Below, piece by piece: positions 29,338 to 39,640 of a stretch of 45,981 nt of DNA (within the stretch, counting starts at the first letter, position 1; each line of letters starts with the position of its first letter). Location of the stretch: the NCBI GenBank assembly GCA_947625185.1, contig CANQNJ010000009.1, positions 1-45,981 on the forward strand, read 5' to 3'. Origin of the DNA: an uncultured Clostridia bacterium. GTDB lineage: Bacteria > Bacillota > Clostridia > Christensenellales > CAG-314. The notes under the pieces are model-generated. The model worked only from the letters and a program-made list of their open reading frames with translations, made no database searches and had not been told where the DNA came from. The translations under genes were made by a program, and so were the position numbers.

Positions 29338-29748
29338 ATGGCTAAGGCAAAAGCATCCAAGAAAGTTCAGTTCTGGGGAACAGGCAGAAGAAAGAAGTCT
29401 ATCGCTCGCGTGAGACTGATCCCCGGCGGAAACGGCACGATCACCATCAACAATCGCGATATAGATCAATATTTCGGACTTGACACCTTGAAGTACATCG
29501 TACGTCAACCTTTGAACGCCACCGACACGCTCGGCAAGTATGACGTTGTGGTCAACGTTTGCGGCGGAGGTTACACGGGTCAGGCAGGCGCGATCCGCCA
29601 CGGCATTTCGCGTGCGCTCGTCGTTGCGGGAGAGGACAAGGCGGTTCTCAAAAAGAACGGCTTCCTTACGCGCGATCCGCGTATGAAGGAACGCAAGAAA
29701 TACGGTCTCAAAAAGGCTCGTAAAGCGCCGCAATTCAGCAAACGTTAA
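29338..29748 (+). CDS. rpsI: Ribosomal protein S9
   Basis: 136 residues. Hallmarks are [53 protein letters not shown] and the basic C-terminal tail ending SKR that reaches the ribosomal P site. A component of the 30S subunit. AAGGAGG ribosome binding site. It is the second gene of the rplM operon, closed by a terminator at 29797. Confidence 0.97.
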
Positions 29749-29796
29749 CGTTTGCGCGTTGCGCCTATCGGGCGACCCATATTACAGCGACAAATT

Positions 29797-29821
29797 AAGA
29801 CGGCTTTTTGCCGTCTTTTTT
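29797..29821 (+). terminator. Terminator of the rplM-rpsI operon
   Basis: AAGACGGC (29797-29804), T-rich loop, GCCGTCTT (29810-29817), then a T-run. Confidence 0.85.
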
Positions 29822-30098
29822 GTTGCTCTGTGAGAAATAGCAGAGTATAGTAGCGAACGAATTGCGGAAGTCGGCTCTATGACAAAGCGAAAGTTCCGTT
29901 GCGATTGGCGACCAGGTTTTTTTATTTTCCGATAGAGATTTTTTCCGTTAGATTTTTGTCGATAATTATATGAGGGCGTCGGCAAGGGCGCGAGAGGGTT
30001 TGCGTTCGGTCGGCGTCGGACCTCGTCTGTGTTGCATATTTGCAAACGTCAAGCGTTGTCATACGGTCGGTGTCCGTCCGACATTTGTCGCTATATAA
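29822..30098. other. Intergenic region upstream of the recombinase
   Basis: No gene found. After the terminator comes TGTTGCTCTGTGAGAAATAGC, similar to the flanks of the 60-bp dispersed repeats, then GGAAGTCGGCTCTAT (29866-29880), which resembles the repeat core in reverse orientation. It may be a degenerate fourth copy. A GTCGG/CCGAC pair lies near 30066-30082. Confidence 0.35.
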
Positions 30099-30115
30099 AC
30101 AATATCAGATATTGT
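30099..30115 (+). promoter_or_regulatory. Operator-like palindrome before the recombinase
   Basis: ACAATATC (30099-30106), one base, GATATTGT (30108-30115): a perfect 8-bp inverted repeat, 53 bases before the recombinase start and overlapping possible -10 sequences (TATATAA, TATTAT). It may bind a repressor, or the recombinase itself. Confidence 0.5.
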
Positions 30116-30168
30116 ATTATATGTGCAGACGCCGTTTGCGTCGGAAAATAACAAAAGGAGTAACGAAA

Positions 30169-31092
30169 ATGTTGTACAAACAATGGTTGAACGAGTGGTT
30201 GGAACTGTACGTCAACGTTTCCACCAAGGAAAGGACTTATATCAAATATCGGCAACAGGCGAGGAAATATATTCTGCCTGCGCTCGGCGATTACGACGTG
30301 AGCGAACTTACGGCGGTGGAGTTGCAAAAATTCTCCGTTTCGCTTGCCGAACGGGGTCTTTCGGGCAATACTGTCAACGGCATAGTGTCCATACTCAAAT
30401 CGTCGTTGAAAAAGGCAGTCGCGCTCGGCATAGCGGACAAGCAATTTGCCGACTCGATAGTACGTCAACGACAGCGCGCGGGCAAAGTAACCTGCTTTTG
30501 CATGCCGGAACAGAAGAAGATCGAAAAATACGTTCTGGAACACAACGCGCCCAATTTATTCGGCATATTACTCAGTCTCTATACAGGTCTGCGCATAGGC
30601 GAGCTGCTTGCCCTGCGATGGGAGGATATCGACTTGAAAAAAGGCACCGCGGCGGTCACGAAATCCTGTCACGACAGTTGGCAAAACGGGCACTACATCA
30701 AGGTATTCGATACGACCAAGACGCAGAGTTCGGAACGGATAATTCCCCTCCCGAAGCAGATAGTGGACTATATGCGACGCATCAAGAAGCAGACCAAGAG
30801 CCAATTCGTCGTGATAGGCAGGACGGCGTACGGCGCGCAAATACGCTCGTATCAGCGAACATTCGGCAACCTGCTGCACAAGCTGCACATTCCGCACAAA
30901 GGTTTCCACGCGTTGCGGCATACGTTTGCCACACGCGCGTTGGAAGTGGGCATGGACGTCAAGACGTTATCGGAAGTGTTGGGGCACAAGAACCCGATGA
31001 TAACGTTGCAGCGGTATGCACATTCGCTTATGGATCACAAGACGGCGATGATGAACAGGGTCGGACGGCTGCTTTTGAGTCCCGTGCAATAG
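30169..31092 (+). CDS. Tyrosine recombinase (phage integrase family)
   Basis: 307 residues. An N-terminal core-binding SAM-like domain (about residues 1-90) precedes the catalytic domain with the full active-site set: Arg in LYTGLRIGELLALRWEDI (about 140), the beta-hairpin Lys region near TKTQ, HALRHTFATR near 246, LGHKNPMITLQRYAHS with catalytic His near 270 and Tyr near 282. It breaks and rejoins DNA at specific paired sites. No excisionase or phage gene is nearby; instead a 25-bp inverted repeat enclosing promoter-like DNA lies just downstream, which suggests a DNA invertase role at 31157-31344. The start is ATG 30169 with AAAGGAG; the open frame extends to 30040 without a ribosome binding site. 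Confidence 0.9.
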   Translation: MLYKQWLNEWLELYVNVSTKERTYIKYRQQARKYILPALGDYDVSELTAVELQKFSVSLAERGLSGNTVNGIVSILKSSLKKAVALGIADKQFADSIVRQRQRAGKVTCFCMPEQKKIEKYVLEHNAPNLFGILLSLYTGLRIGELLALRWEDIDLKKGTAAVTKSCHDSWQNGHYIKVFDTTKTQSSERIIPLPKQIVDYMRRIKKQTKSQFVVIGRTAYGAQIRSYQRTFGNLLHKLHIPHKGFHALRHTFATRALEVGMDVKTLSEVLGHKNPMITLQRYAHSLMDHKTAMMNRVGRLLLSPVQ

Positions 31093-31123
31093 CGGTTGCG
31101 ATATATTTTTCGGCACAAATAAA

Positions 31124-31153
31124 CGACGGCGGCAAATTGTTTTGCCGCCGTCG
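31124..31153. terminator. Strong terminator between recombinase and invertible segment
   Basis: CGACGGCGGCAAA (31124-31136) pairs perfectly with TTTGCCGCCGTCG (31141-31153). It insulates the recombinase from the segment at 31157-31344 in either direction. Confidence 0.8.
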
Positions 31154-31156
31154 CTA

Positions 31157-31181
31157 TGTACATAGATTAAGCAGATATATG
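31157..31181 (+). repeat. Left inverted repeat of the putative inverton
   Basis: 25 bp, 23 of which match the complement of 31320-31344. The core TTAAGCAGATATAT (31167-31180) is perfect. The site is itself symmetric: GTACATA (31158-31164) and TATGTAC (31178-31184) flank the centre, as expected for a tyrosine-recombinase core site. Confidence 0.85.
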
Positions 31182-31319
31182 TACTTATATATCGTATATT
31201 ATCTCATTATATTCAAAAAGTCAACATTCGGAAACGTTTTTTTCGATAAAAATTGCAAAAAAATCTGTAAAAGATGACAAATTCCGCGTTTTGTATGTAT
31301 AAACGAATATTTTTCGCAC

Positions 31320-31344
31320 CATATATCTGCTTAATATCTGTACA
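31320..31344 (-). repeat. Right inverted repeat of the putative inverton
   Basis: Complement of 31157-31181 with two mismatches; perfect core ATATATCTGCTTAA (31321-31334). The outer GTAC-bearing arm is kept (TATCTGTACA), while the inner arm is degenerate compared with the left site. Confidence 0.85.
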
Positions 31345-31407
31345 AAAAAAACCGTACATATGTACATAGAAAAAATGCCTGTATTATACGGCGAACGGAG
31401 GTTTGAT

Positions 31408-34400
31408 ATGTATACAGCAAACAAACCTAAATACAAACGCGGATTTACCATGGCGGAACTCGTCATCGTGGTGGCGATCATTGCCATACTTTCGTGTATT
31501 GCAATCGTATTTATCAATCCGCAAGACCTCTCGTATACGGAATACAATCGCAGCGCGGAAGCGATAGCTACGGCGGTGCAGAATCGTCTTACGGAGATAC
31601 GCAATTCCGGCGATATGGCGCAGTTGCGGGCTTTGGGCGAAAGCGCAAGCAAAAGCGGTATTGTCGCAACGGCGGGCGAAGCGTCCGGCTCTGCCGTCAA
31701 AGGCGGATACCGATATGTATTCAATTATGAAGTAGTCGAAGGCGCCATCGTCAAGAAAGACATCAGCTACATTCTGCCTTTCGGCACTATCGAATACAAC
31801 CTGTCGCAGCATTACTTTGCCATCGGTTTCCAAGCGGATACAGGTATGGTAGGAGAAGTATTTTATTCCGAGCAGCCGATAGGCGATTGCTCCGTAAGCT
31901 ATCTGCTCTCCCTTTCCGGCGACGAACCGGAAAAGCAAGCCGCAAGGAAAGCCGAAAACGTTGGCTATTACAAGGGTACGGTAGACGCGCAGGAAGTGGC
32001 TTTTGCCAACCTTCCCACGCCGCAGCTTACCATTGTCAACAGCGAAGAACTCACATTGAACATTTATTTGCCCGCGGTCAAGCAGTTGCAGGATATGGGC
32101 AAGCAGATAGGTATCCTCGTATCTCTTTCCGACAAGAACGGAAAAATATATTCGGAAAAAAAGCTTGAATATTCCGACACGGCGATCTATTCCACCTATC
32201 CTCTGGGTGATGCCGCCGCCGACAATGTCGACCCCTCCAAGCCGTCAGTTGTGTCGCAGGAGATAACTTCCGGCACGACATATAAGATAATTCTCGATAC
32301 CGTCAAGAAATGCAATACCCTCGACTTGCAGAACAAACTCGGCGCGGAGGGCAATCCTTCTCAGGCAAGCGATACTCCGCCCAAGGGCAAATTCGAAGAT
32401 TGGGCAAAGAAGTCCGCAGCTTACGACGAAGGCATATTCGAGTTGGGCGACAACTCCGTAATTACCGTTACGGTCTATTGCCTGTACAGCGAAGGTGATT
32501 CGCACTATAACGAAAACAATCCCGTTGACCCCACCTATATCCCCCGTTCGGCTTCCGTCACTTTCAACGGTTGGTTCGACAATTACAACAGTAGTTCGGT
32601 GGATATTTCCTGCGGCAGACATCTGCAAAACCTGGGCAATATGACCGTAATGCAGTCGGCGCTTCAAGCGCAGCTCCCCACGGTGGAAGAACATGACGGC
32701 GTGTACACCTACGGCAACTACAACTACGGTATGGCAAAGACCTACACCGACGGAAGCAGTCACGCGTCTGAATCGGTGGATTACGACACGTTGAGTGAAA
32801 AGTACGACCGCCGCAAAGACGTGAAGAGTATCAGCAAGGCAAATCAAATCAACGCGATAGACTTCGATTGCGAAGAGTGGAAAGAAAACGGCAAGCGAAT
32901 ACCGTTTACTCCCGTCAATCTTCCTCACGATTTCTATTACTACGGCAACTATCTTACGATAAATCACCTGTATGTCGACGCTCCCTTCTATGCGGGGCTG
33001 TTCGGCTATGTCTATCATCCGCGTCTCTACGATATTCTGCTTGTCAATCCGTCCGTCAATTCGCAGATGCCGGCGCGTCTTGCGGAGTTGTACGAAATGG
33101 GCGTGGGAGCGCTTGTCGGCACCTCGCGCAATTCTTCGCACATCAATAACTGTCAAGTGTATATGACGCAGGAGGACGGCACTTATCACCCCGACAAATA
33201 TCGCGTTACGGGCGAAGGCTATGTTGGAGGTCTTATCGGCTTCTGCGAGGATGAGGATCTTGAAAGCTGTTCCGCATCCGTATATACCGGATATGCCAAG
33301 GGTGCCACCAAGACGGTAGACGGCGTAGAGGTCTCCGTTTCTTCAAAGTATGTAGGCGGGTTGATCGGCGCCATATCCGGCGACAGCACGATACAAAACT
33401 GCTATGCCGCGGGCAACCTTTCGGGACAGTATGTAGGCGGACTTGTCGGTTTTATCGTCGAGGATAGCGATACCTCCGGCGACGACTATCGCATATCCAC
33501 CTGCTACACGGCAGGGCATATCGAGTATGCCTCCGAGCAGGCTGCGGGCATTCTCGGCTGCGTTCGCGAGTTGGCGGGCAATGCAAAGTCCGCTTTGAGC
33601 ATTTACAACAATTATTGCGCAATCATCTACGGAGAAAAGCAAGGAAGCGGCTACGCGTGGACTGCCACCAAGAAAGAGGGCGGTTCGGACGTACCCGTCC
33701 CCATCTACGGCACCTTTAAGGGCGACGGCTACGAATGGCTGCGTACGGAAACGCTCGGTTTCAGCGACACCTATCTTACGGGCAAATATGCGGGCAAAAC
33801 ATTTTTTGCCGGCGCGGTATTTGCCAACGACAACAGAAATTACTATATCGCGCAGAACAATATAAATTATAGCAGCAGTCCCTACTATACGGCGATGAAG
33901 AATGTAGTAGAGCAGTTTCTCAAAGACATCTCCGACGCCAAGGGAAACGTCACCCTTCTCGAACAAAAGATCAAGGCTGCGCAGGATCAGATAGTCTGGC
34001 TCAAAAAAATGCAAACTCTCGAACAGCTCAAAGAGGCTATGGAAAATATCCTCTACGAGGTGGAAAACGAAACAGGCTTGGATCCTGACGGCGATCCGTA
34101 CAACGAGGGCGGATTTTACGAATATCCCGATAATAAGGGTAAAATTTATTTCGATACGAGTCGCGCCAGGGTAGAGGGAAAAGAAAGAGAAACAAGCCAT
34201 ACTTACGAAATAATGACTCTTTTGCAAGCTTTGCACGTCATATACGACGGAACGTATACCGACAGTACGGGTACGCATACTGTCACGATGACATACGGAG
34301 GCAGCGACAGCGCCAAGCAAAAGCTGAACAGTTACGGTATCTATACATTTATGGATTACTACAACTTCCTCAACAAGACGTACGGCGAACTTGTGAAAGA

Positions 34401-35814
34401 GGGCGCAACGGAAGCGGAAAAAACAGCGGCTCGTCAAAAGCTCGTCGACATTCTCGGCGACAACACGACGGAGACATATGAAGAGGCTAATGAAAAAGGC
34501 GTGATGGAAACGCACAATTTCTACGAAAAGGGATTGTTCTACCGACACTTCTATTCCGACCTCCTTTATCGGCTCATCAACAAGGCAAAAGATTACTACC
34601 AGGAAAATGCGAAAGACAATACGGGCGAGTTGATCTACCGCCATTTCCGCGATCTTGTTGAAAGCAGATTCCTTTACGTCCTCGTCGATCTTGGCATTTC
34701 GCCTACGGAGCGCGACAATTTTTTGAACAACGTCAAGAAAGCCGAAGTGCAAAAAGCCATCGACGCGATGACGGACTATCTCACTATTTGCGACGAATGG
34801 AAAGGACCGATGAAGAGTTATGCTGCCGATGCGAAGGGGTATATCACCAGCGCCAAGACAGCTCTCGAAACTCTGCTGAAAGATCTTGACGATCCGACCA
34901 TCACGACGGAAAAACTGCAAAAGGACATTGACGCCGCCGACACGCCCCTTGAATCTCTGTATGATTTACTCGACGCTCACAAGGCGGCAAATCAAAGCAC
35001 GGATACGGGCGATTGGGACGCTGTGGACAAAGACGGCACCAAGGGCGATATGCGTAAACTACGCGATCCCGTCGCAATTTATTGTAGAAATATCGCTTTG
35101 TGCGTAGCCTCGGCAAATTCCGGCGTGGAGAACGCTCTCGAAGAGCTTGCGGCAAAGCTTGTTCAACATACGGATGCGGCAACTGCCGTTGATGAATTTA
35201 CGAAAAATGTAAATACCTACCTCGGCGAGGCGTGGGGATACGCGGATTCCGGACATATGCTCAGAGACTCCGAGGAGCTTCGCAATGCCGCACGCGGATT
35301 CGTTTACGGCAGAGAGGTCGATTCGGAACGGGAGAGTTCTCTCGGTTTTATGTATGATTACCAGAACGACCATTCCGGAAATCCCTACACATTTACCCAC
35401 GACGCATACGTTGACGGTGACAACGGCATTTACAACAACGTATTTCCCTATACGGAGAACGCTTTCACAAGTTACTATCCCTTACCCTTTGTGTACGGAA
35501 TGAAAGTGGAAGGTTCCGAGTTCCGTGCGTCCTATGTGCTGTTCCATTATGGCGATTGGCTGACCGAGGATCTGTGGGTCAACAGCACGATAAACTATCA
35601 CACCGATTATCCCGAAATTGCCGACTTTGATGGCGAGCCGATAGTATTGCCGTCCGAGCTTGTTACTGCGTCCGATGCGGAGACTTTTGAACCGGACGAC
35701 GTCGATATTAGAGCGCGTGACGAGGATATAGATACTCCCTTCTACTTCGAGGGTTGGTATATGGACGCGGCATTGACTATACCGTACAGCAACGAATATT
35801 ATCAACAAAGATAA
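31408..35814 (+). CDS. Giant prepilin-signal surface protein with GLUG-like repeats (5' part of a frame-split gene)
   Basis: 1,468 residues. The N-terminus is a class III (type IV prepilin) signal: a basic leader, then KRG cleaved before FTMAELVIVVAIIAIL (Glu at +5), then a pilin-like helix. Residues about 100-560 are extracellular-looking. GLUG-type repeats follow (VTGEGYVGGLIGF near 600, SSKYVGGLIGAI near 645, GQYVGGLVGF near 672). About 830-1330 is mostly charged helix. The end resembles an InlB/Listeria-Bacteroides repeat (FYFEGWYMDAALTIPY) and is cut by TAA at 35812; the missing strand (KTFDLYAKW) continues in the +1 frame. ATG 31408 has CGGAGG upstream. First gene of a pseudopilin operon beside the inverton. 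Confidence 0.8.
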   Translation: MYTANKPKYKRGFTMAELVIVVAIIAILSCIAIVFINPQDLSYTEYNRSAEAIATAVQNRLTEIRNSGDMAQLRALGESASKSGIVATAGEASGSAVKGGYRYVFNYEVVEGAIVKKDISYILPFGTIEYNLSQHYFAIGFQADTGMVGEVFYSEQPIGDCSVSYLLSLSGDEPEKQAARKAENVGYYKGTVDAQEVAFANLPTPQLTIVNSEELTLNIYLPAVKQLQDMGKQIGILVSLSDKNGKIYSEKKLEYSDTAIYSTYPLGDAAADNVDPSKPSVVSQEITSGTTYKIILDTVKKCNTLDLQNKLGAEGNPSQASDTPPKGKFEDWAKKSAAYDEGIFELGDNSVITVTVYCLYSEGDSHYNENNPVDPTYIPRSASVTFNGWFDNYNSSSVDISCGRHLQNLGNMTVMQSALQAQLPTVEEHDGVYTYGNYNYGMAKTYTDGSSHASESVDYDTLSEKYDRRKDVKSISKANQINAIDFDCEEWKENGKRIPFTPVNLPHDFYYYGNYLTINHLYVDAPFYAGLFGYVYHPRLYDILLVNPSVNSQMPARLAELYEMGVGALVGTSRNSSHINNCQVYMTQEDGTYHPDKYRVTGEGYVGGLIGFCEDEDLESCSASVYTGYAKGATKTVDGVEVSVSSKYVGGLIGAISGDSTIQNCYAAGNLSGQYVGGLVGFIVEDSDTSGDDYRISTCYTAGHIEYASEQAAGILGCVRELAGNAKSALSIYNNYCAIIYGEKQGSGYAWTATKKEGGSDVPVPIYGTFKGDGYEWLRTETLGFSDTYLTGKYAGKTFFAGAVFANDNRNYYIAQNNINYSSSPYYTAMKNVVEQFLKDISDAKGNVTLLEQKIKAAQDQIVWLKKMQTLEQLKEAMENILYEVENETGLDPDGDPYNEGGFYEYPDNKGKIYFDTSRARVEGKERETSHTYEIMTLLQALHVIYDGTYTDSTGTHTVTMTYGGSDSAKQKLNSYGIYTFMDYYNFLNKTYGELVKEGATEAEKTAARQKLVDILGDNTTETYEEANEKGVMETHNFYEKGLFYRHFYSDLLYRLINKAKDYYQENAKDNTGELIYRHFRDLVESRFLYVLVDLGISPTERDNFLNNVKKAEVQKAIDAMTDYLTICDEWKGPMKSYAADAKGYITSAKTALETLLKDLDDPTITTEKLQKDIDAADTPLESLYDLLDAHKAANQSTDTGDWDAVDKDGTKGDMRKLRDPVAIYCRNIALCVASANSGVENALEELAAKLVQHTDAATAVDEFTKNVNTYLGEAWGYADSGHMLRDSEELRNAARGFVYGREVDSERESSLGFMYDYQNDHSGNPYTFTHDAYVDGDNGIYNNVFPYTENAFTSYYPLPFVYGMKVEGSEFRASYVLFHYGDWLTEDLWVNSTINYHTDYPEIADFDGEPIVLPSELVTASDAETFEPDDVDIRARDEDIDTPFYFEGWYMDAALTIPYSNEYYQQR

Positions 35815-37030
35815 TGCACTCAACGGCAACGAGTCGAAAACTTTCGATCTTTACGCCAAGTGGATAACCAAGCCTTCGCTTACGTTTTACGCAGGCGACT
35901 TGAAGGGCAGTTCTGGACTTATTAACATAACTGTGGACACGACTATGACGTTAGATGTCCTGAATAACGACTCAAAAGTAAGCAATAAAGACAACTCTTA
36001 TCAAAAGTACACCGTCTGGCTCAAACCGGGGCAAAATGTGACGATCTCCGTAAAAGGATCTTATTACTACAATTTAACGTACAACGAAGATGGTCCTGTA
36101 TTGGAAAAAGGCAGCGAACCAATTTACATCATCGACAGTTTGACGATTGTCAGCCCGACGGAATTTACGGGTACGGCGCCTTGGTTTGATGAGAGTAATA
36201 TCGTCAAGGAAAAAGGCACGGTAACGTTTAGCGTGCCCGCAAAAGCAACGACCGCCGACAACTATGAGTTGACGCTTTCTGCTGAATTAGGTAGTGGTGA
36301 CGGCGGACCTCAAATTAATATATGCCTTGCCGAAGGGACTATGATCAGAATGGCGGACGGCAGTTTGAAGTCGATAGAGACTCTCGAAGTCGGCGATATG
36401 GTGCTTGCATTCAATCATCTCAGCGGCAGATACGAGGCGACGGCGCTGTTGATGACTCCGCATACGGAGTTGGGCGCCAAGTTGTACAACGTCACGACGC
36501 TTAGCTTTTCCGACGGGTACAAGCTGCGTATAGTGGGCGAACACGGGCTGTTCGACCGCACGCTTAACAAGTATGTATTTATAAATGAAACCAATTACAG
36601 TCAATATATCGGGCATAAATTCAGCGCGGTAAGCGTATCGGGCAGCATTGTCGAGGATAGAGCGGTTACGCTCGAAAGCGTTTCAGTGGATGGAGAAATT
36701 ACCAGGATATATTCGCCCATCACCGAAAATCACCTCAACATCGTAGCCGATGATTTGCTCACAGTAACTTCTATGATGGGCTACGGCGACGCAGTTGTAA
36801 ATATCTTCGCCTACAACGCGGATATGAGCTTCGATCTTGAACAAATGAATGCCGATATCTTGAAGTACGGCGTATACGGTTATGACGACTTTGCCGACCT
36901 GTTGCCGCAGGAAGTGTGGGATAAGGTTCCGCTCGGCATAATGAAAGTGGCTGTCGGCAAAGGACTTATTTCTTACGAAGAAGTAAGACAGATAGTCATT
37001 TATATTTACGAAAACGGCTATTTGTCTTAG
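35777..37030 (+). CDS. Hint (intein-like) domain continuation of the giant prepilin protein
   Basis: This frame is open from 35777. The sequence INKDNALNGNESKTFDLYAKW completes the InlB-like repeat begun in the other frame, so this is probably the 3' part of the gene at 31408 after a one-base frame break at about 35795-35811; the joined product would be about 1,870 residues. No ribosome binding site supports separate initiation (a TTG at 35900 is possible). A Hint domain begins at Cys 36323-36325 (CLAEGTMIRMADGSLKSIETLEVGDMV, block A) and has the block-B histidine in RIVGEHGLFD and a late ENHLNIVADDLLTVTS segment without the terminal His-Asn of splicing inteins. The chain then ends in about 70 helical residues. 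Cleavage without splicing is plausible but unproven. Confidence 0.65.
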   Translation, partial: LYRTATNIINKDNALNGNESKTFDLYAKWITKPSLTFYAGDLKGSSGLINITVDTTMTLDVLNNDSKVSNKDNSYQKYTVWLKPGQNVTISVKGSYYYNLTYNEDGPVLEKGSEPIYIIDSLTIVSPTEFTGTAPWFDESNIVKEKGTVTFSVPAKATTADNYELTLSAELGSGDGGPQINICLAEGTMIRMADGSLKSIETLEVGDMVLAFNHLSGRYEATALLMTPHTELGAKLYNVTTLSFSDGYKLRIVGEHGLFDRTLNKYVFINETNYSQYIGHKFSAVSVSGSIVEDRAVTLESVSVDGEITRIYSPITENHLNIVADDLLTVTSMMGYGDAVVNIFAYNADMSFDLEQMNADILKYGVYGYDDFADLLPQEVWDKVPLGIMKVAVGKGLISYEEVRQIVIYIYENGYLS

Positions 37031-37045
37031 GCAGGAGAAATGGAT

Positions 37046-37900
37046 ATGTACAAATTTATAAGTAAACCCAATGTCAGACGCGGCGCGTCGATAATGATTG
37101 CGCTCATAATTTTCTTGATATGCGCGCTTCTCGGGGCGTCGGCATTTATGATGGCGGCGACCAACGTGGGGAGATATGCTCATCTCGACGATCAGCAATA
37201 CTATTCCGTATCTTCCGCGGCGCTTATGATAGTGGATATGTTGGACGATCTTACATTTACGTCAGGCACCGGCGATACTGCGTCCCACCCGATAACGTAC
37301 ACCTACGAGCGTAATTGGAATTACACCGGCGGAGCGCATCAGGAAACGGACAGTTACAAGCTGACTATCCCCGAGGGACATCTCGGAAATTTAGCACACG
37401 CAAGTACGTTGAGAAGCGGGTTGAAGGGCCTCGAAACAATTATACTTTACCAATGCGACAAACTCGTGCCGTACCTCAACGTCCCCGAGGAGTGGTACGA
37501 AAAGATCAAGGATCAGCCCGACGCATTGACGAGACCGACCCCGGATCAGATCCCTTCCGTCAGCTATGAGTTTACGGTCAAGGTGCAGGACAGCAAGGGA
37601 CAAGAGGACAGCAAATACGGTACGGTCAATTGCAAGTTTGTAATGAACGCCAACTACGACATCTTGCTTACCTTCAACGGCGGCGACAAAGAATATGCGA
37701 TAACCGTCTATTGGGTGGCAGACGTAAGTACGACGATAGCGACGGACAATCCCAAGTACGTTTATGCGGACGGTGAAGCCGTGGATGAAAACGGTCACTA
37801 TTTGAAGGGTTCGATGACTCAACTGCGCACGCTCAACGTCACGGTTAAGTGGGACAAGAAAAACGTAACTATTTCAAGAGGAGAGGCGATAAATGCGTAA
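37046..37900 (+). CDS. Pilin-like membrane-anchored protein (PilX-like)
   Basis: 284 residues. A basic N-terminus (KPNVRRGAS) leads into a single hydrophobic helix (IMIALIIFLICALLGASAFMMAATN, about residues 16-40), then a mainly extracellular domain. The pattern resembles PilX/minor-pilin N-termini more than a canonical G-FTxxE prepilin signal, since the Glu at +5 is absent. The AGGAG ribosome binding site is spaced for ATG 37046 rather than 37040. It is the third member of the operon; its stop overlaps the next gene's start by eight bases. A minor pilin or assembly-priming role is inferred. Confidence 0.65.
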   Translation: MYKFISKPNVRRGASIMIALIIFLICALLGASAFMMAATNVGRYAHLDDQQYYSVSSAALMIVDMLDDLTFTSGTGDTASHPITYTYERNWNYTGGAHQETDSYKLTIPEGHLGNLAHASTLRSGLKGLETIILYQCDKLVPYLNVPEEWYEKIKDQPDALTRPTPDQIPSVSYEFTVKVQDSKGQEDSKYGTVNCKFVMNANYDILLTFNGGDKEYAITVYWVADVSTTIATDNPKYVYADGEAVDENGHYLKGSMTQLRTLNVTVKWDKKNVTISRGEAINA

Positions 37901-38204
37901 ATTGATGGGTAGATCGAGACGGAACAAAGGCGAATCTTTTGTGGAAATATTGATAGCTATATTGATAGTCGCATTCGGCTGCGTGATACTTGCCACGCTG
38001 TATTCTTCCGCTATGGACCTCAACTTGACCGCCGCAAAGAAAGACGACGCGTTTTACGACTCCGTATCGCAAACGGAGCAGATGTTCGACAATGGGACAA
38101 AAACAGGCGAAGAAAAAGCTATCATAGAGGGCGAGAACGGCGACAGTGTGCGTGTTACAATAGAAACTTACGGCGACGATGACAACGCCGCATACAAGAG
38201 GTGA
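37893..38204 (+). CDS. Minor pseudopilin
   Basis: 103 residues. A type IV prepilin-like N-terminus: basic leader RSRRNKG followed by ESFVEILIAILIVAFGCVILATLYSSA, with Glu at +5 from the Gly. The mature domain is short (about 65 residues) and acidic. Likely processed by a prepilin peptidase, not encoded in this window. It overlaps the preceding gene by eight bases and lies eight bases before the next, so it is tightly coupled in the operon. Comparable to PilV/GspI-type minor subunits, but identity is too low by eye to name. Confidence 0.7.
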   Translation: MRKLMGRSRRNKGESFVEILIAILIVAFGCVILATLYSSAMDLNLTAAKKDDAFYDSVSQTEQMFDNGTKTGEEKAIIEGENGDSVRVTIETYGDDDNAAYKR

Positions 38205-38211
38205 CGCCGCA

Positions 38212-38751
38212 ATGAAGAAGATTTTACGCACCAAGGGCTTTACGTTGGCAGAGGTATTGATAGCCACGGCGATACTTGCCGTATTTGCCTCTATGGCGAT
38301 ATTCGGGACGTCGGCGCTGCTCGGCTCGGACTTGAAGATGATGTCCGTCTCCAAGGCGGCGGTACTCGGCTCGGACGCTTTGAAGGTGATTGCCAACGAA
38401 ATTCGTTTCGGCAAAGATTTTGAATTGAGCAACGGCACGATAAAATACAACAGCACCTCATACGGCGACAATTGCACGATAAAGTTGGACACCGATGGAC
38501 AGTTGACGATAGTGCAAACGCCTCGCGTGCCGTCCGGCGACAGCAGCAGTAAGACGTTTCTTCCTATCGGGTCGGCGGCATATGACGAGGTGAGGATATC
38601 CTCTGTTGTTTTTGACGTCAAGGTAAGCGAGAAGGATAAGAGCAGACAAATAATATCTTGCACGCTTTCCGTCACTTCCGACGGAACCAATACGCTTTGG
38701 CAAGAGACATTGACCGTCGTTCCGCTCTATCAGAAAACGAGTTATAAATAA
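38212..38751 (+). CDS. Pseudopilin with canonical prepilin signal
   Basis: 179 residues. Canonical class III signal: KKILRTKG cleaved before FTLAEVLIATAILAVFASMAIFG, then an alpha-1 helix and a beta-rich C-terminal domain of about 130 residues. It resembles GspJ/PilW-type minor subunits in size. The start is ATG 38212 with AAGAGG at acceptable spacing; the frame is open to 38179 inside the previous gene. Last gene of the operon, closed by the terminator at 38772. No ATPase, platform protein or prepilin peptidase is encoded here, so the assembly machine must be elsewhere. Confidence 0.8.
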   Translation: MKKILRTKGFTLAEVLIATAILAVFASMAIFGTSALLGSDLKMMSVSKAAVLGSDALKVIANEIRFGKDFELSNGTIKYNSTSYGDNCTIKLDTDGQLTIVQTPRVPSGDSSSKTFLPIGSAAYDEVRISSVVFDVKVSEKDKSRQIISCTLSVTSDGTNTLWQETLTVVPLYQKTSYK

Positions 38752-38771
38752 CAACTTTTATTCTTATCGAG

Positions 38772-38800
38772 AAGCCCGTACTTGTTTGCGGGCTTTTTTT
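38772..38800 (+). terminator. Terminator of the pseudopilin operon
   Basis: AAGCCCG (38772-38778), ten-base loop, CGGGCTT (38789-38795), followed by a T-run. Confidence 0.85.
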
Positions 38801-38872
38801 CGTCCATTCAAGTCTGTACGGTTGACTGCGCGACCGACCCCTGACGGGGCGCAAGCGCACACTTGAATGGAC

Positions 38873-38985
38873 TTCGTCACAACTCTCGCTTGACGTTACC
38901 GCTTGTGCAAGCACAAGCGGTGCCAACGTCGCTCGGTTGTTCCTCTCCCGCACAAGTTTCATTTTTCAACTTGTGCGGTACCCTT
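38873..38985. repeat. Structured dispersed repeat, copy 2
   Basis: Nearly identical to window bases 1-67, then diverging into a hairpin that differs in sequence but not in fold: CCGCACAAGTT (38948-38958) with AACTTGTGCGG (38968-38978) here, CAAGTC with GACTTG in copy 1. It holds the same CCGCTTGTGC/GCACAAGCGG stem (38899-38908, 38911-38920). Confidence 0.8.
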
Positions 38986-39205
38986 GAAGCCGAGGACACC
39001 TCGGCTTGCATTATTTATACTTTCGGCGGGGAGTCGCATGCCCCGCCCTAAGTATAGGGGCAATCTTGTATCATATTACAAAAGCCTCCCTTTCTGCCCC
39101 TTTGAGGGGCATAAGGACGAAGGACGAGAAAGGCAATCTCCACGGTGTGGAGTCGCCCGTCCTGAGTGCAAGGATGCGCTATTTCTAAGACGCATCCGCA
39201 GCATT

Positions 39206-39330
39206 GGGACCACCGATAGGTGGTGGAAGGGTTTGATAGGGTGAATTTTATTAAATTCCCGACCTTAACTTGCCGTTTTGCGGCAAACTTCACCATCTTC
39301 CCGTCAGTCCCTTCCACCGCAAGCGGTCCC
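39206..39330. repeat. Long imperfect inverted repeat
   Basis: Left arm 39206-39245 (GGGACC, then GGTGGAAGGG, then GGGTGAA) pairs with right arm 39289-39330 (TTCACC, CCCTTCCACC, GGTCCC), about 40 bp each, around a 43-base centre with its own GCCG/CGGC pair. It looks like a palindromic mobile repeat. Confidence 0.7.
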
Positions 39331-39409
39331 CCTTCCCTTAGTCGTAATATATTTTATTGCACGATACAATCTATGCACGACGAAGGGACGGCTTTATATG
39401 TGCGGCTTA

Positions 39410-39564
39410 CAACCTTATATCTGCGGATAGGAGTGTGTGGTCGGGCACCTTGTAACACCACGAGCAACTGTCAGAGTCTCTTATGGCACAATGTCAAGGT
39501 AAAAGAGAATGAGATACACAAGCCGACTTCTATATCAATGCTGAATTTTCGGCATATAAGGTTG
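39410..39564. mobile_element. MITE-like segment carrying 60-bp repeat copy C
   Basis: Terminal perfect 11-bp inverted repeats CAACCTTATAT (39410-39420) and ATATAAGGTTG (39554-39564) bound 155 bp without a gene. Inside is repeat copy C (39501-39535: GAGATACACAAGCCGACTTC). A second imperfect pairing, GGCACAATGTCAA near 39485 with TTGACTATTTTGTGCC (39562-39577), overlaps the right end and the -35 of the next promoter. Confidence 0.45.
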
Positions 39565-39590: not shown

Positions 39591-39640
39591 TAATATTAAC
39601 GGCTTCGTTGAGATCGCGGACGTCTGCCAAAGGAGGACAT

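Follow-up and report, generated by a model that had tools for sequence, protein, structure and literature searches.

A candidate promoter-inversion cassette with its own tyrosine recombinase ahead of a pilin-like operon in an uncultured Clostridia bacterium

INTRODUCTION

Invertible promoters that work with tyrosine recombinases are well known. In E. coli, the fim switch (FimB/FimE) is a promoter-bearing invertible segment which lies beside the recombinase genes and controls fimbriae, and in Bacteroides the recombinase Mpi flips the promoters of surface loci, one recombinase serving many switches. The invertible fim segment is 296 bp long (PMC5903667). C. difficile has several switches under RecV, among them the flagellar and cwpV switches; the flagellar one is located in the 5' leader, downstream of the promoter, and works through Rho (PMC7446863, PMC5903667). 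In Clostridia of the human gut, inverton group 139 has been linked to an adjacent tyrosine recombinase of invertase group 35 (PMC11892184).

Here we describe a locus within a 45,981-nt stretch of DNA from an uncultured Clostridia bacterium, referred to below as the window. As in fim, a promoter-bearing, putatively invertible segment lies beside a recombinase, although the segment is shorter, the pilins are of the type IV class and the recombinase falls outside the FimB/FimE families by the NCBIfam cut-offs. Promoter flipping for surface loci is a likeness to Mpi, but here there is about one recombinase per switch. The likeness to RecV is the inversion of a short intergenic segment by a tyrosine recombinase, phase-varying surface structures; in contrast to RecV, the promoter itself would flip here, and each switch is adjoined by its own recombinase (PMC7446863, PMC5903667). 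Compared by description, group 139/35 is likewise a Clostridia inverton with a nearby tyrosine-type recombinase, the detection there being read-based (PMC11892184).

RESULTS

An intact recombinase and two inverted core sites

The gene at 30169..31092 (plus strand) encodes a tyrosine recombinase of 307 aa, the putative invertase of the switch, and it is intact (PF00589, E 7.7e-27, together with PF14659). Residues R142, H247, R250, H273 and Y283, the positions expected of catalytic residues, are invariant across 18 relatives. The best solved relative is the Int protein 6en0 (E 5e-28). Against the NCBIfam models for FimB/FimE-like tyrosine-type DNA invertases, NF007371 and NF007370, the protein scores below the curated cut-offs (26.3/222 and 19.7/221 bits), and it also misses those for XerC, XerD and XerA (69.2/335, 51.4/330 and 76.4/220 bits).

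The 25-nt arms which an earlier note had placed at 31157-31181 and 31320-31344, complementary at 23 of 25 positions and enclosing 138 nt, were reproduced exactly. The repeat scores 19, and scores of at least 18 are absent from shuffled sequence (20 shuffles of each of 120 downstream flanks); at such strength and spacing it is not a product of chance. The GTACATA/TATGTAC symmetry noticed earlier is also genuine and reflects the symmetry between the two arms of a 10-7-10 core site. Both repeats are in fact full tyrosine-recombinase core sites, in which two inverted 10-nt arms flank a 7-nt spacer, and the spacer, TAAGCAG, is identical in the two. The left site (31158..31184) consists of the outer arm GTACATAGAT, the spacer at 31168-31174 and the inner arm ATATATGTAC. 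The right site (31317..31343) is inverted, with the inner arm CACCATATAT, the spacer at 31327-31333 as CTGCTTA, the reverse complement of TAAGCAG, and the outer arm ATATCTGTAC. Read in the same sense, the two are GTACATAGAT-TAAGCAG-ATATATGTAC and GTACAGATAT-TAAGCAG-ATATATGGTG. The right site has degenerate arms (GTACAGATAT, CACCATATAT), which could lower the flipping rate of the window copy. The DNA predicted to be exchanged on inversion is 31175..31326, that is, the inner arms and the 132-bp interior. A third, unpaired half-site, GTACATAGAA, is present at 31362..31371 on the plus strand, 18 nt beyond the right core site, and matches the left outer arm at 9 of 10 positions.

Within its own genome the segment is single-copy, with a weak match only, at a paralogous cassette on contig C21. 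An exact 13-mer on contig C12 was considered as a further site and rejected as chance, since it has no arms. No Rfam match was found in the window.

Promoter orientation and terminator

The candidate minus-strand promoter described earlier, TTGACT-17-TAATAT (31196..31224), matches the consensus at 9 of 12 positions and is the sole sigma-70-like match in a scan of 29700-31600. Because 3.4 matches are expected by chance in a scan of that length, the weight of the call comes from two other points: the promoter is conserved in L010, the closest relative, and its position is family-typical, the -10 ending 21 nt from the spacer. In L010 the same promoter has the same orientation. The only promoter of the segment thus points left, away from the pilin operon, and the earlier description of the window as showing the OFF orientation holds.

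One element needs to be reassigned. The hairpin at 31122..31155 had been taken for the terminator of the recombinase gene; however, the U-tract belongs to the minus strand, and this intrinsic terminator (a 15-pair stem followed on that strand by TATTTGTGC) therefore faces the OFF promoter. It would stop the OFF transcript before an antisense run into the recombinase gene.

The pilin operon and its genomic setting

To the right of the segment, the putatively switched operon begins with a Shine-Dalgarno sequence, GGAGG (31397..31401, plus strand), and a pilin-like gene (31408..35814, plus strand) whose 1468-aa product carries a prepilin N-methylation motif (PF07963) and a GLUG motif. It is followed, also on the plus strand, by an ORF with a Hint-like segment (CLAEGTMIRMADGSLKSIETLEVGDMVL; 35900..37030; below Pfam cut-offs), by a module gene for a protein with an N-terminal hydrophobic segment (37040..37900), conserved in genomes G011 and G003, and by a gene for a second pilin-like protein (38179..38751; PF07963). 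The Hint-like, self-processing segment has no match in the equivalent modules of G011 and G003.

The recombinase is neighboured by rplM-rpsI on one side and by the pilin operon on the other. In the relatives L160, L161 and L168, the gene after rpsI is the membrane-protein gene found at 39608 in the window, and in L168 trxB comes next. In the window, ∼9.7 kb (29840-39546), comprising recombinase, switch and pilin operon, is inserted between rpsI and the membrane-protein gene. G011 and G003 carry the same module at a distance from rpsI; elsewhere in the genus, no genome has a close copy of its first pilin gene. From gene order, then, the recombinase-switch-pilin module was gained in its entirety. 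Pilus machinery is present in the genome, as judged from two type II/IV secretion ATPases encoded in tandem on contig C41.

A recurrent cassette with shared geometry

The window locus follows a layout that recurs among relatives: a tyrosine recombinase of 300 aa, a core site, ∼110-150 bp with one promoter, an inverted core site and the target gene. In a survey of 120 recombinase relatives (450 bp downstream, spacings of 60-300 bp), inverted repeats scoring at least 15 were found in 38/120 downstream flanks, 2/109 upstream flanks and 0.04% of shuffles. With a detector that requires two core sites with identical, inverted spacers, paired sites were found downstream of 52 of 117 relatives, versus 0.2-0.6% of shuffles. 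The recombinases which have a cassette are strongly clustered on the tree and do not form one clade.

Judged from the aligned loci, identical spacers are accompanied by helical phasing, a fixed promoter position and an OFF-facing terminator. By consensus scoring, each cassette has one dominant promoter (best score at least 14 in 43/47, against 7.8% of shuffles), directed away from the target (OFF) in 32 of the 47, toward it (ON) in 14 and unclear in one. Whichever way it points, its -10 ends at a distance of 21-25 nt from the spacer in the majority of cassettes, and RNA would therefore start just inside the core site. Between recombinase and left site, leftward terminators are present in 21/36 cassettes and rightward ones in 4/36 (shuffled, 7%).

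The distances between sites cluster ∼10.3 bp apart, at 137-142, 146-150, 158-162 and 166-168 (R 0.69; null 0/5000), and the window, with a spacer-to-spacer start distance of 159, belongs to the 158-162 cluster. Relatedness was considered as the source of this phasing and set aside: the signal survives clustering at an identity of 65% (n=25, null 0/2000) and of 55% (n=14, null 0.8%) and loses significance at 50% (n=8, null 15%). Such spacing would follow from a requirement that the two sites come face to face on a loop whose length is near the persistence length.

An arm in plus orientation, 16-19 nt beyond the right site, is seen at a match of at least 8/10 in 18/46 cassettes, against a background of 0.6%. 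An effect of arm composition was rejected as the explanation, as other offsets average 0.6% with a maximum of 4.3%. This third half-site makes the two sites unlike, and our leading guess for its role is control of bias or rate. In L012, L020, L021, L022 and L076 an extra minus-strand half-site lies ∼15-17 nt inward of the right core site and mirrors the outer one.

The genome of the window contains four cassettes with four spacers (C9 TAAGCAG, C21 TAGTCTA, C2 TAGTATA, C58 TAGTTTA), and other genomes observed with two cassettes likewise have two different spacers each. With a spacer of its own, each switch would be protected against recombination with the others in its genome.

Some members depart from the layout. 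The cassette L097 has unmatched spacers, as a locked or decayed relative. In L043 (G012:C20) and L070 a single core site lies ∼45-80 bp past the recombinase stop, with left and right outer arms joined and the invertible segment gone, as if recombination between the two sites had excised it and left a scar. In L044 (G021:C2) a single core site after the recombinase runs into a protein-coding frame, without a promoter segment; this may be gene shuffling by a recombinase of the same type, or else a misassembly.

Targets of related switches

Pilin-like targets with a prepilin motif lie behind L009, L010, L012, L067, L074, L076 and L081, and behind L039, a paralogue in the genome of the window. Other targets include lipoprotein-like proteins, N6/N4 and EcoRI-type adenine methylases, a restriction-type helicase, an ABC ATPase, a glycosyltransferase, a TetR regulator and an amylase. 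Similar switches stand ahead of DNA methylases in L022, L023, L029 and L095, two of them EcoRI-type, which suggests phase-variable methylation or phage defence in the order. A conserved target operon, found in L202 and L203 and including a 204-aa protein which starts MAEK/MAQK and has an RSHRARVKQAN-like sequence, lies behind the switches of several species in both orientations, and also in L048 and L049.

Inversion among sister cassettes

Comparison of sister cassettes shows inversion between species and, judged from contig breaks, within samples. Between L040, from the genome of the window (C2), and L050, from another species (G005), the left and right flanks align directly at 95% and 92% identity, while the interior reaches 85% identity only after flipping, against 55% in direct alignment. 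The outer arms remain in place and the inner arms are swapped between sites, which puts the crossover within the spacer. In a second group, the interior of L028 and L025 is flipped relative to L048.

The contigs carrying L025 (G004), L047 (G018) and L041 (C58 of the genome of the window) break identically near the switch, exactly 77 nt past the first base of the right repeat (its inner edge). A repeat of 7-20 bp alone is insufficient to break an assembly at k=77, and the exact 77-nt break therefore marks a de Bruijn branch at that k, as expected where two orientations meet. In G004 another contig begins with the identical 77-mer, and in G018 another finishes with it, each leading into the target operon; a contig bearing the right flank of C58 was not found in its genome. 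Inferred thus from assembly rather than read mapping, the breaks indicate that both orientations are present within samples. L013 was considered as a further case and not counted, its contig stopping 82, not 77, nt past the repeat and having no partner contig.

The flipped arrangement which the earlier note had proposed to look for in related genomes was found among related cassettes. The search did not yield it for the window locus itself: with one representative genome per species, no flipped copy was found, and L010 is oriented alike. The window contig runs unbroken through the switch, so that no mixture of orientations is visible for this copy.

DISCUSSION

The promoter flip-switch is almost certainly real and a member of a recurrent family in uncultured gut Clostridia, and very probably the window segment and its adjacent recombinase form a self-contained phase-variation cassette. 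The proposal that the recombinase drives a promoter switch is supported at family level, by both orientations, contig breaks and identical paired spacers. This has to be set against the view that the enzyme serves a mobile element or phage as its integrase, with the repeats as attachment site. The recombinase does belong to the same superfamily as the Int protein 6en0, with phage and plasmid integrases at 30-36% identity, and the ∼9.7-kb module does interrupt a pair of genes that are neighbours in relatives. However, no further core site in the window exceeds 18/27 matches, hence the far end of the module lacks one; phage or conjugation genes are absent among the window proteins tested, and the check for an attachment to phage or ICE revealed no such genes adjoining the recombinase. 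The viral contigs scanned contained no relative, and phage and viral collections gave distant integrases only, or nothing. As an integrase would have no need of paired inverted sites or a promoter at fixed spacing, we regard this explanation as very unlikely.

The extra half-site within the 5' leader could also be understood if the repeats were operators, bound by the recombinase or another protein as a repressor without any inversion, but natural inversion with crossover in the spacer, together with the branch-type contig breaks, requires recombination in the family, and we give the idea almost no credence. A different matter is whether the window lineage carries a real cassette that was once a switch and is now locked OFF. 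The unbroken window contig and the degenerate arms of the right site are in keeping with such a copy, and locked or decayed relatives exist (the unmatched spacers of L097, the single hybrid site of L043 and L070). Yet the spacers are identical, the recombinase is intact with every catalytic position retained, and phasing, promoter position and third half-site have all been kept; a locked switch is thus unlikely.

In the phase-variation cassette that we favour, the recombinase would bind the two inverted 10-7-10 core sites just past its own gene, synapse them across a loop of ∼150 bp and exchange strands inside the 7-nt spacer, flipping the only promoter of the segment. When OFF, the promoter would read left into the terminator. 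After the flip it would be located at ∼31277-31305 on the plus strand, with transcription starting at ∼31312, and the ON transcript would pass through the right core site and enter the pilin operon at 31408. We infer that the window copy flips, that the adjacent recombinase is responsible and that the promoter is active; the third half-site may help the recombinase to distinguish the two sites, or may regulate switching. Going further, and tentatively, the family may represent a portable plug-in switch, with one dedicated, spacer-addressed recombinase each, helically phased synapsis of a tight loop, and a leader half-site which breaks site symmetry and sets switching bias or rate, several mutually orthogonal copies per genome being placed before pilins, lipoproteins, DNA methylases and transporters. 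We think this fuller picture possible, though somewhat doubtful as a whole.

Whilst promoter inversion is familiar, the architecture of the cassette looks like a new variation. Helical phasing, the third half-site and the OFF-facing terminator are not reported for group 139/35 in the accessible part of its description (PMC11892184), and no descriptions of the three were found in the open-access literature, where helical phasing paired with DNA inversion was found only for the serine recombinase Hin.

The findings indicate that uncultured gut Clostridia phase-vary pilins through compact one-gene switches, and the same kind of switch stands before DNA methylases, lipoproteins and ABC transporters. 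With a geometry this well conserved (10-7-10 sites, ∼10-bp spacing steps, a fixed promoter position and a third half-site), such switches can be found, and their state read, from sequence alone. Loop phasing and site asymmetry in inversion by tyrosine recombinases become directly testable, and the use of a different spacer by each cassette of a genome suggests that these genetic switches are mutually orthogonal.
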